From contig JAENYP010000010.1 of the NCBI GenBank assembly GCA_016841725.1, positions 32,971-96,970 of the forward strand: a stretch of 64,000 bases of DNA, given 5' to 3'. This document shows, one piece after another, positions 48,706-56,221 of the stretch. The stretch's first letter is position 1. Each line of letters begins with the position of its first letter. The notes under the pieces are model-generated. The model did not search any database. It saw nothing but the letters and a program-made list of their open reading frames with translations, and was not told the origin of the DNA. Source of the DNA: Thermincola carboxydiphila (lineage in GTDB: Bacteria; Bacillota; Thermincolia; Thermincolales; UBA2595). The position numbers and the translations under genes were made by a program.

Positions 48706-49902
48706 ATGACAGTTAACATTGAATTGTGGGCTACTGATGGTTATATGAGCACACCTGACGGAAACAGTATTTATATCTGGGGGTTTAGTGATGCCGCCGG
48801 AAAAAAAGCCCAACTGCCCGGACCCAGAATTGTGGTCACCCAGGGGGATGTTGTCAGCATCACAGTCAACAATATCCTTCCCGAAGCCACCTCTCTTTTA
48901 TTTCCCGGCCAGTCAGGCGTATTGGCTGATACCGGCACAGGGCCGCACCTTGCGCAGCCACAATTTGACGGCAGCGGCAATTTAGTATCTCTGACGGATT
49001 TTGCTGATTATCCCGGAAACCCGGACACCAACCCTGCCAGCATTAAATATACCTTTACAGCCGGAAATCCGGGAACATACCTTTATGAAAGCGGTACCAA
49101 TCCCCATAAACAGGTCCCCATGGGCCTTTACGGAGCAATAATCGTAAGGCCTGCCGACTATGACCCGGCGATACCCACCAGAAAAACCGCCTATGGAGAA
49201 AACACCGGAACCGAATTTGACCGGGAATACCTGATAGTTGTCTCTGAAATCGACCCCGCCCTGCACAGCGCGGTAGAAAAGGGAACAGAGTACAAAATAC
49301 GGGAATTCAAACCCCGGTACTGGACTATGAACGGCCGCTGCGCTCCTGACACCATGTTTGCCGACGGTATGGGCTGCCTGCCCAACCAGCCCTATGGGGC
49401 CATGATTATGGCAGAACCCGGCGAAAAAATCCTGATCCGTTATGCAGGCTCCGGGATTGAGAACCACCCCCTGCACCTCCACGGAAACCATACCAGAATT
49501 GTTGCTGAGGATGGCCGCCTGCTTAAGAACGGCGCCACTGATTTATCCTACAAACGGTTCACGGTACTCACCGGGTCAGGCCAGACTTATGACCAAATCT
49601 TTACCTGGTCCGGCCTGGGTTATAGTCCGGCTGACCCGATTCCCACCACTGTACCCAATCTGCGCAACCTGGGCGTGGGAGATGCCGGGTGGACTTTGTG
49701 GAGCGGCAGCCCTTACCTGGGAGAAAAAGGAGATATTCCGGTGGGTGTTACCTCCTTTAATGGGATTGGGGAGTATTACTTTATGCTGCACTCCCATGAA
49801 GAGATGCAGATTACCAACTGGGGCGAGTTTCCGGGAGGGATGATGAGTATGCTGGCAATATTCCCTGCCGGCACGCTCGGAGATACAGGAATAATAGAAT
49901 AA
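48706..49902 (+). CDS. Two-domain multicopper oxidase-like protein B (domain 2 copper ligands)
   Basis: 398 aa, two cupredoxin domains, no signal peptide. Domain 1 has lost its ligands: the HxxHxHG site of protein A aligns with TSLLFPG and HCH with ESG in LYESGTNPHKQVPMGL. Domain 2 has NHPLHLHGN (His254, His257, His259) and MLHSHEEM (His362, His364), giving two HxH pairs, but Ser replaces the type 1 Cys. Exactly complementary to protein A. Follows it by 13 nt with AAGGTGGGA as ribosome site. Longest of the three owing to an insert of about 45 residues before the last motif. Confidence 0.8.
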   Translation: MTVNIELWATDGYMSTPDGNSIYIWGFSDAAGKKAQLPGPRIVVTQGDVVSITVNNILPEATSLLFPGQSGVLADTGTGPHLAQPQFDGSGNLVSLTDFADYPGNPDTNPASIKYTFTAGNPGTYLYESGTNPHKQVPMGLYGAIIVRPADYDPAIPTRKTAYGENTGTEFDREYLIVVSEIDPALHSAVEKGTEYKIREFKPRYWTMNGRCAPDTMFADGMGCLPNQPYGAMIMAEPGEKILIRYAGSGIENHPLHLHGNHTRIVAEDGRLLKNGATDLSYKRFTVLTGSGQTYDQIFTWSGLGYSPADPIPTTVPNLRNLGVGDAGWTLWSGSPYLGEKGDIPVGVTSFNGIGEYYFMLHSHEEMQITNWGEFPGGMMSMLAIFPAGTLGDTGIIE

Positions 49903-49937: not shown

Positions 49938-50876
49938 TTGACAGTAAATATTAACCTGTGGGCCAAAACAGGCAGTTTATCCTTGCCTGGAGCCGGCACA
50001 GTGCCCTTTTGGGGGTTTGCTGGTGCAGCAGCAGGGCCTGCCCAACTGCCGGGACCCCTGTTGGAAGTACCCCAGGGAGAGAATGTTGAGATTTCCCTGA
50101 CAAATGACCTCACCTTTGGTGTTTCTCTTGTCTTCCCCGGACAGGATTTTATTCCCCAGCCGGTAAAAAATCCGGACGGAGCATTCGTGTCTTACAACCT
50201 GGAAACCGCACCCGGAGGCAGCTTAATTTACTCCCTGACCGCGAGCCGTCCCGGTATATTCCTTTACGAAAGCGGCACCGCCCCGGAAAAACAGATTCAA
50301 ATGGGCTTATATGGCGCCATGGTTGTCCGCCCTCCGGGGTTTGACCCCGGTAATCCGGCGACATGGACGGCTTATGGCCCCGGTACCGGAACCGAATTTG
50401 ACGTGGAAAAAATTCTGGTTATCAGTGAAGTGGATACAGCCATACACCAGGCCCTGGCATCAGGTGATGACCCGGCAGCCTATAATCTGGATTATTTTTT
50501 AATCAATGGGCGCAGCTTCCCGGATACGTTAAACCCTGACGACAGCGGGACCCAGCCCTATAGCGGCAAGATCACAGCAAATTCAGGGCAGCGGGTTTTG
50601 TTACGGATTATCAATGCCGGGTTTATGAACCATAATATCCGGCTTCAGGGTATTGATATCAAGGTAGCAGCAGGTGACAGCCGGCCGCTGATAACACCCG
50701 GCCTCGATAAATCGTATCTGAAGCATACAGTTACAATAGGTTCCGGTCAGTCATATGATATCCTGTTTACTGCTCCGGCTGCAGGGAACTACATCCTTTA
50801 TGACCGCAATCTGAATTGCTGTGTCAATGGAAACAATTTTCCGGGCGGGATACTGACTATGGTCGGGATAATTTAG
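49938..50876 (+). CDS. Two-domain cupredoxin protein C (no copper ligands)
   Basis: 312 aa, closely related to protein B in both domains (LYESGTAPEKQIQMGLYGA; TGTEFDVEKILVISEVD). All copper motifs are gone: VSLVFPG, ESG, HNIRLQG and NLNCCVNG. It can only be structural, for instance filling the third two-domain position in a six-domain ring like that of ceruloplasmin or MnxG. SD GAAAGGAGG. Last gene of the four-gene operon, followed by a strong hairpin. Confidence 0.78.
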   Translation: MTVNINLWAKTGSLSLPGAGTVPFWGFAGAAAGPAQLPGPLLEVPQGENVEISLTNDLTFGVSLVFPGQDFIPQPVKNPDGAFVSYNLETAPGGSLIYSLTASRPGIFLYESGTAPEKQIQMGLYGAMVVRPPGFDPGNPATWTAYGPGTGTEFDVEKILVISEVDTAIHQALASGDDPAAYNLDYFLINGRSFPDTLNPDDSGTQPYSGKITANSGQRVLLRIINAGFMNHNIRLQGIDIKVAAGDSRPLITPGLDKSYLKHTVTIGSGQSYDILFTAPAAGNYILYDRNLNCCVNGNNFPGGILTMVGII

Positions 50877-50901: not shown

Positions 50902-50941
50902 TTAGATTAATTCCCCCTGTAAAAAGGGGGAATTAATCTAA
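50902..50941. terminator. Bidirectional terminator between cupredoxin operon and acr3
   Basis: 16-bp perfect inverted repeat TTAGATTAATTCCCCC around an 8 nt loop; its right arm covers the stop codon of the convergent acr3. A run of A/T pairs at the base serves both strands. Confidence 0.8.
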
Positions 50942-52011
50942 GTCATCCCAATTCGTTCCGCCTCACCCTCTCTGGTGAAATACTTCTTACCCCAGTTGAG
51001 AGCTACATTAACCAGGGCTATCATAACCGGCACTTCGATAAGAGGACCAATTACCGCAGCAAAAGCCTGACCCGATTCGATACCAAATACGGCTACGGCA
51101 ACCGCTATTGCCAGCTCGAAGTTATTGCTGGCCGCAGTGAAGGATAGGCTGGTGGTTTGGCCATAGTTAATACCCATCTTCTTGCTGAGGAAGAAAGACA
51201 CCGTAAACATCACCACGAAATAAATCAGCAGCGGGATGGCGATACGCACCACATCGACCGGCAGCTGTACTATCAACTGCCCTTTATAGGAAAACATTAC
51301 TACAATGGTAAAGAGCAGCGCAATCAGGGCCAGGGGACTGATCTTGGGTACAAAGGTCTTTTCATACCACTCCTTCCCTTTGGCCGGTTCCAGAAAAAGC
51401 CTGGTCAGCATGCCGGCAGCAAAAGGAATCCCGAGATAGATAGCAACGCTTTTGGCCACCTCACCCATGCTAATATCAACTTCCATTCCCCTGAGTCCCA
51501 GCCATTCCGGCAGCACCGTGATAAAAATATAGGCATAGACCGAGTAGAAAATTACCTGGAATATTGAGTTAAAGGCCACCAGGGCAGCGGCATATTCGGT
51601 ATCGCCTTTAGCCAGAGAATTCCAGACAATAACCATAGCGATACACCGGGCCAGTCCGATTAAAATGAGACCAACCATATATTCAGGATAATCCTGCAAA
51701 AATACTACCGCCAGCACAAACATCAGGATAGGTCCGATAATCCAGTTTTGCACCAGAGATAATCCCAGCACCCGGGTATTTCGGAAAACCTTGCCCAGTT
51801 CCCGGTAATTTACTTTAGCCAGGGGCGGGTACATCATAATAATCAGACCTACCGCAATTGGTATTGAGGTAGTCCCCACAGACAACCTGTCTAAGAGATC
51901 AGCCACCCCGGGGAAAATGTACCCGATGCCAACCCCAATAGCCATTGCCAGAAAGATCCAGAGAGTCAGCAGTCTGTCCAGCACAGACAATTTTGCCTCT
52001 TTTTGCGCCAT
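50938..52011 (-). CDS. acr3: Arsenite efflux permease Acr3
   Basis: 357 aa, ten membrane helices. Acr3 features: [19 protein letters not shown], the essential cysteine of helix 4 in [15 protein letters not shown], and [15 protein letters not shown]. Expels arsenite (or antimonite) using the proton gradient. Second gene of an arsR-acr3 operon, 42 nt downstream of arsR; SD AAGGAGG. Confidence 0.93.
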
Positions 52012-52053: not shown

Positions 52054-52416
52054 TCAGTTTTTCGCAGTTAATTTTTCACAAACAGCCGGGTCAGTTCTTA
52101 CCTGGGAAGGCGGCAGATTTTCCAGTTTCTTTAGGATAGGTTCCGCATAACACCGGACTGTTTCCGCCGCTTCATCCGTAAAAATCTCCTGAAAAACACT
52201 GCCATTCAAGGAATAGTATATCCATTTCCCTTCTTTGCTGTCTTTTACTAACCCAGCCTGCCTCAGGATTTTCAGGTGGTGGGAAACAGCAGGCTGAGAT
52301 ATGTCGAGTTTATCGAAGATTTCACAAACACACATCTCCTGTTCTGACAGCATATTTAGTATTTTTAATCTGATTTCATCTCCTAAAGCCTTATAGAATT
52401 CTGCAATTTTTTTCAT
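52054..52416 (-). CDS. arsR: ArsR-family metalloregulator
   Basis: 120 aa winged helix. Metal-binding motif EMCVCEIFD in helix 3 and recognition helix QPAVSHHLKILRQAGLV. Represses the operon and leaves the DNA on binding arsenite. Promoter region upstream is very AT-rich and holds a palindrome at 52453-52478. Confidence 0.9.
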   Translation of the reverse strand: MKKIAEFYKALGDEIRLKILNMLSEQEMCVCEIFDKLDISQPAVSHHLKILRQAGLVKDSKEGKWIYYSLNGSVFQEIFTDEAAETVRCYAEPILKKLENLPPSQVRTDPAVCEKLTAKN

Positions 52417-52478: not shown

Positions 52479-52809
52479 TAATCTTATGCTAAAAAGCAAT
52501 ATTTGGAGTGAATTTATTTGACACATCCCTGCTCGTAAGATTTAAAATTTAAAAAGGATTTAAGAAAATACAGGAAGAATTATTAAATATTGATTAGCAA
52601 TGATTATCATTATTTGACTGGTATTTTTATGGATATTAAGCGCCTTTTCAGCAGCTGCTTGAATGTCTGCCTTCTTATAACAGGCTGAAAACGGTAACCT
52701 CAAAAAAGAACCAGTTCATGGGAAAACTGTCTTCAGGGAAGAGAATTACCAAAAAAATATTTCTGGGAGCTAATGCTGAAATTTCTTATCAATTAGGAGG
52801 GGTATTGAG
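52479..52809. other. Gene-less gap with a Fur-box-like palindrome
   Basis: About 330 nt without a credible gene on either strand. At 52599-52611 is AATGAT-T-ATCATT, which equals the core of the classical Fur box apart from the central base. No open frame with ribosome site follows it, so it may be what is left of a lost iron-controlled gene, or chance in AT-rich DNA. Confidence 0.35.
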
Positions 52810-52835
52810 AAAAGGCTCCACGCCTGGAGCCTTTT
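52810..52835 (-). terminator. Terminator after the permease gene
   Basis: AAAAGGCTCCA-CGCC-TGGAGCCTTTT, an 11-bp perfect stem with T on both ends, so it can act on either strand; it lies 12 nt after the permease stop codon. Confidence 0.88.
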
Positions 52836-52847
52836 CTTGCTGCTCAA

Positions 52848-53864
52848 CTATCCCAAAAGATATGATGTTGCATTAAAAAAGTAACCCATAACAACAATTC
52901 CAACCGCTACTATCGCGAAGAAGACTGCCAGGAGTTTGGGTTTGACCACCTTTTTCAGCATAATCATAGAGGGCAGCGATAAGGCTGTAACCGCCATCAT
53001 GAAGGACATTACTGTTCCTACTCCAACCCCTTTGGCTAATAATGCTTCGGCTATCGGCAAAGTGCCAAAGATATCGGCATACATGGGAATGCCTACTACT
53101 GTTGCGAGTATCACCGCAAATGGATTATTATCACCAACCACATTTTCTATAATTGACTGGGGAATCCAGTTGTGAATTACCGCTCCTATCCCGACACCAA
53201 CCAGGACGTAGAGCCACACTCTTTTGATAATGTCTCTGACCTGATCCCTGGCAAAGGCTATTCTTTCTTCACGTGTCTTCTCAACAACTACAGAGTCGAC
53301 ATTTTCAATTTCTCTGACATAACCTTCCACATACTTTTCCAGACCTAACTTGTCAATAAATGTGCCGCCGACAACTGCCAAAACCAAACCGACAATAACA
53401 TAGGCAATGGCAATTTTAGCTCCGAAAAATGACATTAATATCAATATTGATGCCAAATCTACAAGTGGTGAGGATATCAGGAATGAAAAGGTAATTCCCA
53501 ACGGCAGACCTGCCGAGGTAAAACCGATAAATATCGGTATACTGGAGCAGCTTCAGAATGGGGTAATTGTTCCCAATAATGCGCCAAGAATATTACCTTT
53601 GATACCTCCCATCCTGCCCAGAATTTTTTTGGTCCTTTCAGGCGGGAAATAGCTTTGAATGTACGATATGCCAAAAATAAGCACAGACAATAAGATGAAA
53701 ATCTTGATCGTATCATAGATAAAAAACTGGATACTCCCCCCAAGTCTCTCCTGGACAGACAAACCAAATACCTTTTCCACCAACAGGCTTACCGATTCTG
53801 AAAGCCATGTCATTCTTAGAAGTTGGTCGTTGAGCCAAATAAATATCTGAGTTAAAATCTGCAT
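52848..53864 (-). CDS. Permease (ArsP/YraQ, DUF318 family) with in-frame UGA, candidate selenoprotein
   Basis: Read through one TGA codon at 53555-53553, the frame gives 338 aa, the normal length of this eight-helix permease family. The text around it is GTITPF-(UGA)-SCSSIPIF, where relatives have FCSCSS, so UGA sits exactly on the first Cys of the conserved Cys-Ser-Cys. Codon 104 would be selenocysteine and codon 106 is Cys. Everything downstream is intact and in frame, unlike a decayed gene. A hairpin ACCGAT-ATTT-ATCGGT lies 14 nt after UGA. The family moves arsenic, copper or zinc species or thiol compounds; third gene after arsR and a CxxC protein. Confidence 0.75.
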
Positions 53865-53932: not shown

Positions 53933-54178
53933 TTAGCCTTTGGCAGCTTCTGTGATAACTTCTGTCAGCTTTACTTTAGAAGGCACACCACCCGACAATT
54001 TTACCTGGCCGTCAATTACCAGAGCAGGGGTTGACATAACACCAAAAGACATTATTTCCTTGAAATCTGTTATATGAGTGACACTGGCATCCAAATTCTG
54101 TTCTGCCAGCACATTAAAAACCATCTGCTCAAGTTTGTTGCAGTTAGCACACCCAGCACCCAATACTTTAATATCCAA
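53933..54178 (-). CDS. Small thioredoxin-like redox protein (CxxC)
   Basis: 81 aa from TTG 54178, since AAAGGAGGTG lies 6 nt upstream and would be overlapped by the GTG at 54187. Thioredoxin fold with GAGCANCNKLE (Cys10, Cys13) and the cis-Pro region MSTPALVIDGQV. Belongs to the redox-active disulfide protein 2 type. Placed between arsR and the permease, a common trio. It may reduce the Sec/Cys pair of the permease or hand over thiol-bound metalloid; inferred. Confidence 0.85.
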   Translation of the reverse strand: MDIKVLGAGCANCNKLEQMVFNVLAEQNLDASVTHITDFKEIMSFGVMSTPALVIDGQVKLSGGVPSKVKLTEVITEAAKG

Positions 54179-54183
54179 GCCAA

Positions 54184-54522
54184 TCACCTCCTTTTGCTTT
54201 TTGCTTTCTTACTTAATAGCTCTAAAGTCTCATTGACCTGGGTAACAAGTATCTCTTCCACCAAATCCAGTATTTCAAAAACCTGGGGATAGATTACCGA
54301 ATATATGACCTTTAGACCTTCTTTCCGGCTGGCCACAATATTTTGTTTGCGCAGAATTGCCAGGTGCTGGGACATGTTTGACTGCTCCACATCCAAGTCC
54401 TCGGTAAACTCACAAACACATTTCTCTCCATCCATCAGGTGCTTTAATATACGTACCCTGGTCGGATGAGCAAGGGCCTTAAAAAAATCGGCTTCCATTC
54501 CGAACAACCTTTCATTCATCAT
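54184..54522 (-). CDS. ArsR-family metalloregulator, second copy
   Basis: 112 aa. Metal motif EKCVCEFTEDL and recognition helix QSNMSQHLAILRKQNIV, so thiol-based metalloid sensing is expected. First gene of the arsR, thioredoxin-like, permease operon. ATG 54522 or 54519 with AAGGGGTGA. A 22-bp perfect palindrome lies 60 nt upstream. Confidence 0.88.
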   Translation of the reverse strand: MMNERLFGMEADFFKALAHPTRVRILKHLMDGEKCVCEFTEDLDVEQSNMSQHLAILRKQNIVASRKEGLKVIYSVIYPQVFEILDLVEEILVTQVNETLELLSKKAKSKRR

Positions 54523-54732: not shown

Positions 54733-55371
54733 ATGGGATCTAAAGAACGTAAAGAACGGGAGCGCAGGGAAAAACAGGAACTCATCCTAAACACAGCAGC
54801 TGAGATTATGAAAGAGGACGGTATTGATAATATCTCCATTAGGAAAATTGCATCCAGAATAGAATACTCACCGGCAATTATCTACCATTATTTTAAGGAT
54901 AAAGATGAAATATTAAACCATCTGATGCAAAGAGGTTACCGGAAAATACTGGATGGATTGGCTGCGGCGCTGGATACCACAGATGACCCAAGAGAAAAAC
55001 TCAGGCAAATGACGCGAAATTATATTGAGGTATCTCTGCAAATGTCTGACGAATACAAGGCTGTACAGCTTAACAGCACGCCCGGGGTTGTAGCCCAAAC
55101 TGCCTCTCTATTCAAAGGTGCCGCCGCAAAAAAACCGGCCCTGAAAATTCTTTTCCAGGGCCTCAAAGAAATTTACAAAGACAGAGACATAGATGACAGT
55201 GTTATTGAACTGACGGCTCAGATCATCGCCGCAAGTACCTTTGGCCTGATTATACGCCTGATTATGGAACAGGACCTGATTTCTGAGGAACAAAAAACTA
55301 ACCTTATTGATCAATTCATAAGAATTACTGTTGATGGAATGGTATTGGGAAACACTCTGGATAGGGGGTGA
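54733..55371 (+). CDS. TetR-family transcriptional regulator
   Basis: 212 aa from ATG 54733 (GGAAGGTG upstream); the frame opens earlier at GTG 54691 but without ribosome site. N-terminal HTH: LILNTAAEIMKEDGIDNISI, then RKIASRIEYSPAIIYHYFKDK. C-terminal ligand domain is of the TetR_C_33 kind. Four nt before the DUF6544-like gene, which it probably controls. Confidence 0.88.
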   Translation: MGSKERKERERREKQELILNTAAEIMKEDGIDNISIRKIASRIEYSPAIIYHYFKDKDEILNHLMQRGYRKILDGLAAALDTTDDPREKLRQMTRNYIEVSLQMSDEYKAVQLNSTPGVVAQTASLFKGAAAKKPALKILFQGLKEIYKDRDIDDSVIELTAQIIAASTFGLIIRLIMEQDLISEEQKTNLIDQFIRITVDGMVLGNTLDRG

Positions 55372-55375
55372 TGAA

Positions 55376-56221
55376 ATGCCTAAAGTAATCAAGTTTGTCC
55401 TTGCACTTGTTGTGGCTATACCGGTCCTGCTTCTGATGGCGTCATTTATTGCTAATTACCTGTTCACCCTTAACGCAGAAAAAGAGGTCATAGCACTGTT
55501 TGATAACATCGACGATAAAAAAGAAATTGTCCGCAAAGAGGACCTTGAAGGGCTGCCGGGCACTGTCCAAAAATGGCTGGAACACTCTCAGGTAATCGGC
55601 AAAGAGAGAATCAAAACAGTTCACCTGAAACAAAAAGGCCTTATGCGAACCACTGAAGATGGAAAATGGATGCCCGCCGAAGCAGAACAGTACTTTAGAG
55701 TAGACGAACCAGGCTTTGTATGGACAGCCAAAATTAAAATAGCACCCGCCGCCTACCTGGCAGGAAGGGATAAGTATTATGAAGGAAAAGGCCACATGCT
55801 GATTAAACTCCTTTCACTGATACCTGTCGCAGATTCCAGGGGAGAAGAAATAGACCAGGGTACGCTCTTGCGATACATGGCTGAAATGCCCTGGTTTCCA
55901 ACAGCAGCCTTAAACGATTACATCGAATGGGAAGAAATTGACTCTAACAGAGCCAGAGCAACCATGAGCTATGGAGGCGTAACCGCTTCAGGGATATATG
56001 AATTTAACGAAGAGGGTGAGGTTGTCAGCTTCATCGCCAACAGATACCGGGAAGTAAATGGGAGGTATGTGCTTCAGGACTGGGGGGGTATTACGAGGGA
56101 ATACCGGGAATTTAACGGTATCAGAATTCCTAATAAAACCGATGTCATCTGGAAACCGGAAACAGGAGATTTCACCTGGTATAAGTTGGAGATTACCGGA
56201 ATTGAATATAATAAAACATGA
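55376..56221 (+). CDS. DUF6544-like membrane-anchored protein
   Basis: 281 aa from ATG 55376 with AGGGGGTGATG. One N-terminal helix (FVLALVVAIPVLLLMASF), then a domain with RTTEDGKWMPAEAEQYFR, YYEGKGHMLIKLLSLIPV, LRYMAEMPWFPTAAL and WGGITREYREFNGIRIPNK, all typical of the DUF6544/DUF6920 group. Function unknown. Partner of the TetR gene in one operon. Confidence 0.78.
   Translation: MPKVIKFVLALVVAIPVLLLMASFIANYLFTLNAEKEVIALFDNIDDKKEIVRKEDLEGLPGTVQKWLEHSQVIGKERIKTVHLKQKGLMRTTEDGKWMPAEAEQYFRVDEPGFVWTAKIKIAPAAYLAGRDKYYEGKGHMLIKLLSLIPVADSRGEEIDQGTLLRYMAEMPWFPTAALNDYIEWEEIDSNRARATMSYGGVTASGIYEFNEEGEVVSFIANRYREVNGRYVLQDWGGITREYREFNGIRIPNKTDVIWKPETGDFTWYKLEITGIEYNKT

Follow-up and report, generated by a model that had tools for sequence, protein, structure and literature searches.

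Results

Organization of the permease locus

The window analyzed here is a stretch of 64,000 nucleotides from Thermincola carboxydiphila, whose genome assembly comprises 3.88 Mb. It contains a compact operon in which an ArsR-type regulator is followed by a thioredoxin-like CxxC protein and, as the last gene, a permease (Table 1). The first-pass annotation of this DNA, made from the sequence alone, had proposed an arsR regulator and a CxxC thioredoxin-like gene upstream of the permease, and the Pfam and family profile matches bear out both assignments. The ArsR/SmtB-type gene shares 4 nt with the thioredoxin gene and terminates at a TGA codon that is used as a stop (54186-54184), and the CxxC motif of the Thioredoxin_3 protein (MTH895/ArsE family) reads CANC. 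An arsR-acr3 unit adjoins the permease operon. The stem-loop that lies just 3' of the permease stop codon, which is absent from the list of the consensus scan, is a possible terminator of the operon. Beside the arsenic genes are two adjacent and similar multicopper-oxidase-like proteins (48706-49902 and 49938-50876, plus strand), and a TetR-type regulator is followed by a DUF6544/DUF6920 protein (55331-56221, plus strand) that runs divergently to the arsR operon. The nearest named relative is a metagenome-assembled genome labelled Thermincola ferriacetica, the permease of which is 93% identical.

Table 1. Positions of the genes and RNA features of the locus within the window.
Feature	Position	Strand	Basis
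ArsP_1-family permease gene, 338 aa with predicted Sec104	52848..53864	-	PF03773 and dN/dS
In-frame UGA, codon 104, predicted to be read as selenocysteine	53553..53555	-	12 TGA copies, Cys in other homologues
SECIS-like stem-loop, 41 nt	53510..53550	-	fold energy, covariation, shuffle tests
Thioredoxin-like CxxC protein (MTH895/ArsE family), next upstream of permease	53933..54187	-	PF13192, TIGR00412 over cut-off
ArsR/SmtB-type regulator, CVC motif, first operon gene	54184..54522	-	PF01022, NF033788 over cut-off
Stem-loop just 3' of permease stop	52808..52842	-	seen directly in sequence
Second ArsR-type regulator, upstream of acr3	52054..52416	-	PF01022
Acr3 arsenite efflux transporter, neighbouring transcription unit	50938..52011	-	TIGR00832, 470 bits vs cut-off 283

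An in-frame UGA at an invariant cysteine

Translation of the minus strand from 53864 to 52848, with TGA read as U, yields a frame of 338 residues that is interrupted by a single TGA at codon 104. As had been proposed, 103 codons precede this TGA and 234 codons follow it. The surrounding residues are ...GTITPF-U-SCSSIPIF..., which places the UGA at the first Cys position of the invariant F-C-S-C-S motif, again as previously described. The joined frame matches the PF03773 ArsP_1 profile with an E-value of 4e-68 and a score of 230 bits against a gathering cut-off of 32, and this match extends from residue 44 to 331 and covers profile positions 5-293 of 294. The joined parts therefore have the full length of the family, as the first-pass annotation had claimed.

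Long frames that a TGA joins number 11 in the window, the ten besides the permease having been judged by eye only, so such frames alone are common. The permease is distinct from the others in its family match across the TGA, in the location of the TGA at an invariant Cys, and in the conservation of the TGA in relatives whose identity is 93-96%, 84% and about 50%. Furthermore, comparisons with three UGA relatives and one Cys relative (L024, L025, L027, L026) give dN/dS values of 0.02-0.07 before the UGA and 0.05-0.09 after it, indicating that both flanks are under strong purifying selection. A plain stop at codon 104 would have freed the downstream part from selection, so the low downstream dN/dS speaks against such a stop.

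Distribution of UGA and Cys codons among homologues

We read codon 104 in 30 relatives from 61 genomes and in 80 loci from named genomes. In all of these, the codon is TGC, TGT or TGA; a residue other than Cys or UGA was not seen, so the site described in the first-pass annotation as a conserved Cys never carries a random residue. TGA is present in the window genome (G000) and in G001, G002, G005 and L067 at 79-96% identity, and also in the remoter G009 and G036 at 49-50% identity. A search of 398 genomes of the phylum for the pattern P-F-UGA-S-C produced 14 matches, compared with 2 for the reversed control pattern. Reading of the loci left 11 genuine permeases, which extended the set by G248, G152 (two copies), G342 and G382, whereas three matches, two in G313 and one in G025, are not permeases and were dropped. 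With L067 included, UGA is found in 12 copies in 11 genomes. The arsR-thioredoxin-permease order is found again in most of these loci, and the codon that follows, codon 105, is AGC in 11 of the 12 UGA copies versus 20 of 98 Cys copies. Both copies in G152 (L146 and L158) have acr3 close downstream.

Mapping Sec on a tree of 110 permeases takes 7 changes, at least 5 of which are forced by well-supported branches of what is a quick tree with SH-aLRT support only. Thus, Sec and Cys have been exchanged repeatedly, as they have been in other selenoprotein families. Since G004, which has selB, carries the Cys form in a close relative of the window gene that is 85% identical to it, Sec is not essential to the clade. 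One UGA copy, L150 of G382, belongs to a remote branch of the permeases; its UGA stands at the same place in the motif and is followed by a different stem-loop, which suggests that Sec entered the ArsP_1 superfamily more than once.

A SECIS-like stem-loop follows the UGA

The 41-nt stem-loop begins two bases after the UGA. Its lower stem pairs nt 3-7 with nt 39-43 after the UGA, a middle stem is also present, and its upper stem of 6 bp pairs nt 15-20 with nt 25-30 around the loop AUUU (nt 21-24). The short hairpin that had been noticed 14 nt after the UGA is this upper part, ACCGAU-AUUU-AUCGGU. The 46 nt from the UGA on have a minimum free energy of -13.8 kcal/mol (z = -3.0). Standard criteria for bacterial SECIS elements are a loop of 3-9 nt, an upper stem of 4-16 bp, a spacing of 16-37 nt and a minimum free energy of -7.5 kcal/mol or lower, and the window stem-loop, with a 4-nt loop, 6 bp, 20 nt from UGA to loop and the energy given above, lies within all of these ranges. 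The standard model, as given in the cited part of a 2026 catalogue of prokaryotic selenoproteins, also has a G within the first two positions of the apical loop (PMC13188914). The AUUU loop of the window copy lacks a G there, which is the sole departure from the criteria. The doubt that had been expressed about a conserved loop G was therefore justified, though the stem is conserved by compensatory change. The loop is GUUC in L045, L146, L158 and L148. The same part of the catalogue describes some putative bacterial SECIS elements as failing the standard model (PMC13188914), and the permease stem-loop offers a test case for elements outside the loop rule. Nothing over threshold was found in Rfam around the permease gene.

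Because the I-P-I-F-I-G sequence itself favours a hairpin (CCN...NGG), we compared the UGA copies with Cys homologues and with synonymous shuffles. All six upper pairs are formed in 11 of 12 UGA copies versus 12 of 98 Cys copies (Fisher p = 3e-8), and the mean z score over synonymous shuffles is -2.2 for UGA copies versus -0.24 for Cys copies (p = 1e-6); these p-values treat related sequences as independent and overstate significance, since some copies are close relatives and the UGA copies amount to roughly 4-6 lineages, of which at least 4 separate ones contribute. Upper and lower stems are both complete in 9 of 12 UGA copies and in 4 of 98 Cys copies. In the upper stem, 98.5% of cells are paired, and none of 500 shuffles attains so high a covariation score. 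Depending on the lineage, the outermost of the upper pairs is A-U, C-G, G-C or G-U, and both of its partners are third codon positions, so that A-U, C-G and G-C are exchanged in a compensatory manner between two wobble positions.

Selenocysteine machinery

Selenocysteine is a rare selenium-containing amino acid. A search for selA, selB, selC and selD, which had been suggested as a check, found them all: profile searches of the window genome identify selA (631 bits), selB (358 bits) and two selD genes over curated cut-offs, and the genome also encodes a tRNA-Sec whose anticodon is UCA. Each of the 11 UGA genomes has selB, and the 4 of 37 tested genomes that lack selB all have the Cys form. As selB is likewise found in most genomes with the Cys form, the association fits Sec decoding without being strong evidence for it. 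Both selD genes (L010 and L011, on C37 and C25 of G000) have an in-frame TGA near the N-terminus with a hairpin behind it, the hairpin loops being GGA or GGC, and one of the two genes lies directly after selA.

Discussion

Decoding of UGA104

Given that a UGA at the invariant Cys and the hairpin behind it recur in ten other genomes, we conclude from these sequence comparisons that UGA104 is almost certainly decoded as selenocysteine. The probability that the TGA arose instead from a sequencing error or by recent nonsense mutation, in a gene that is then a pseudogene or encodes a Cys protein, is negligible. TGA is only one base away from TGC and TGT, but the same codon is TGA in copies that include several of about 50% identity or less, it is conserved across genera, the sequence downstream of it remains under selection, and the stem-loop is enriched behind TGA copies only. 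Sequencing error, raised as a concern in the first-pass annotation, is excluded in practice because ten further genomes have the same TGA. If the UGA were a real stop, the permease would be split into a chain of 103 aa and a second chain re-initiated at 53501 or nearby, and there is indeed a downstream TTG-started ORF of 217 aa. However, the frame breaks precisely at the Cys of the motif, and a start at 53501, 17 residues after the UGA, loses the whole SCSS motif. Moreover, TAA or TAG was seen at codon 104 in no copy, the Cys homologues are single chains, and all UGA genomes have selB, which together make a split permease extremely improbable.

UGA recoding to Trp or Gly, near-cognate suppression, and Cys insertion via tRNA-Sec are known from other organisms, and the non-canonical SECIS loop leaves some room for read-through of such a kind here. 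Against this, UGA serves as the stop of arsR in the same operon, the replaced residue is always Cys, as expected for Sec, and the genome has the canonical Sec machinery together with selD genes of the Sec type; we regard read-through of this kind as highly unlikely. It is also unlikely, given Sec insertion, that the functional SECIS element is a second hairpin with the loop GGUC at nt 43-46. This loop is that of E. coli fdhF, and the hairpin is strong in the window copy, L027, L047 and L149, but in L146, L158 and L045 it is either weak or missing. Its loop starts 42 nt after the UGA, beyond the usual 16-37 nt, the GG in the loop is forced by the invariant Gly119, the shuffle test gives a z of only -0.8 (p = 0.04), and its formation competes with that of the first element's lower stem. 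We therefore rank it below the first stem-loop as SECIS element. Under the preferred reading, SelA, SelB, SelC and SelD would decode UGA104, directed by the 41-nt stem-loop immediately downstream, and such permeases would come out split or truncated from gene callers that treat UGA as a stop.

Predicted structure and function

The product would be a full-length ArsP_1 permease in which the invariant C-x-C is turned into U-x-C (U104-S-C106). In a structure model (pLDDT 78.7), residues 101-104 form an unwound stretch between two predicted membrane helices, with U104 inside it and C106 beyond it, and model confidence there is about 65. Structural comparison gives VIA Z scores of 11.6-14.0 to INDY-type chains and ArsB (10tp), at 4.2-5.4 A over about 270-280 residues, whereas the best Foldseek match has an E of 0.07 and none is below 0.001; a solved homologue was not found by sequence. 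The model depicts a helical membrane protein, and its likeness to elevator-type ion transporters (INDY, ArsB, the TRAP membrane domain) is only suggestive.

The ArsR protein and thioredoxin-like protein of the operon and the neighbouring acr3 suggest a metalloid substrate. The permease would most likely export a soft metalloid in the trivalent state, for instance an organoarsenical, its operon being induced through its own ArsR protein, and a role in organoarsenical or metalloid efflux has, in our judgment, about an even chance of being correct. At the substrate site, Sec104 may serve as a ligand or relay that has high affinity and is easily reduced, with the adjacent CxxC thioredoxin-like protein keeping the U-x-C pair reduced. 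The Sec104-Cys106 pair might bind the soft metalloid, or might cycle via a selenenylsulfide that the thioredoxin-like partner reduces. The substrate and the redox role are drawn here from the protein family and the operon, and expression, the direction of transport and the part played by the thioredoxin-like partner are likewise predicted. A more far-reaching and rather doubtful proposal is that the selenol of a Sec metalloid efflux permease binds the substrate directly within the membrane, and that the stem-loop represents a class of SECIS elements whose R-U-U-Y apical loop lacks a conserved G, which would imply a different SelB-RNA contact.

Comparison with known permeases

The gene had been called a likely new selenoprotein. 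The conservation of UGA and Cys and the presence of the machinery uphold the selenoprotein part of this claim, but "new" has to be qualified, since the cited part of the 2026 catalogue already lists, from GenBank annotation, a UxC motif in a Cu/Zn efflux transporter of the SO_0444 family (PMC13188914). SO_0444 (NF033936, WP_014809615.1) is a remote branch of the same superfamily; the window protein matches NF033936 with 110 bits, far from the cut-off of 300, and is not a member. The Sec position of WP_014809615.1 is taken from the published UxC motif and a non-Sec SO_0444 member, L159, and because L159 has CSC at the position aligned with the U-x-C of the window protein, the listed UxC is probably at the same site as U104. 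The SO_0444 motif in L159 continues as CSCGVVP, whereas the window-type motif is CSCSSIP, and, unlike SO_0444, the window permease shares its operon with arsR and the gene of a thioredoxin-like protein. SaoE (NF040736) is likewise a homologous permease of which the window protein is not a member (117 bits versus a cut-off of 325). Sao proteins are linked to selenium; the cited part of the catalogue ties them to metal or metalloid resistance, and the Sec proteins of the Sao system named there are SaoB, SaoC, SaoL, SaoP, SaoT and SaoX, without SaoE (PMC13188914). The related Sec and Cys forms that we scanned are also far below the SO_0444 and SaoE cut-offs.

The namesake of PF03773 is ArsP of Campylobacter jejuni, an efflux permease for methylarsenite and trivalent roxarsone. 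ArsP exports trivalent organoarsenicals and occurs in ars operons beside acr3 (PMC6205960), a neighbourhood that resembles the window locus by description. Unlike the predicted product of the window gene, characterised ArsP is not described as a selenoprotein. Among open-licence literature we found no paper on a Sec-type DUF318/COG0701/PF03773 permease, and our literature search found no earlier report of the arsR-thioredoxin-linked Sec branch. Since these permeases are homologous to SO_0444 and SaoE yet far below the cut-offs of both, they are a new selenoprotein subfamily, not a new mechanism, in a superfamily in which Sec has already been annotated once. Few transporters are predicted to hold selenocysteine. 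According to the cited part of the catalogue, their roles in metal detoxification need further study (PMC13188914).

The Cys homologues of Clostridia (Clostridium, Thermoanaerobacterium, Tepidanaerobacter) are 60-85% identical and have the same motif with Cys, encoded by TGC or TGT at codon 104. A thioredoxin-like gene lies near most of them, and they are mostly without the complete stem-loop. Because the window gene and its Cys counterpart in G004 are so similar and come from one bacterial family, the effect of Sec on metalloid transport could be compared with that of a natural Cys form.
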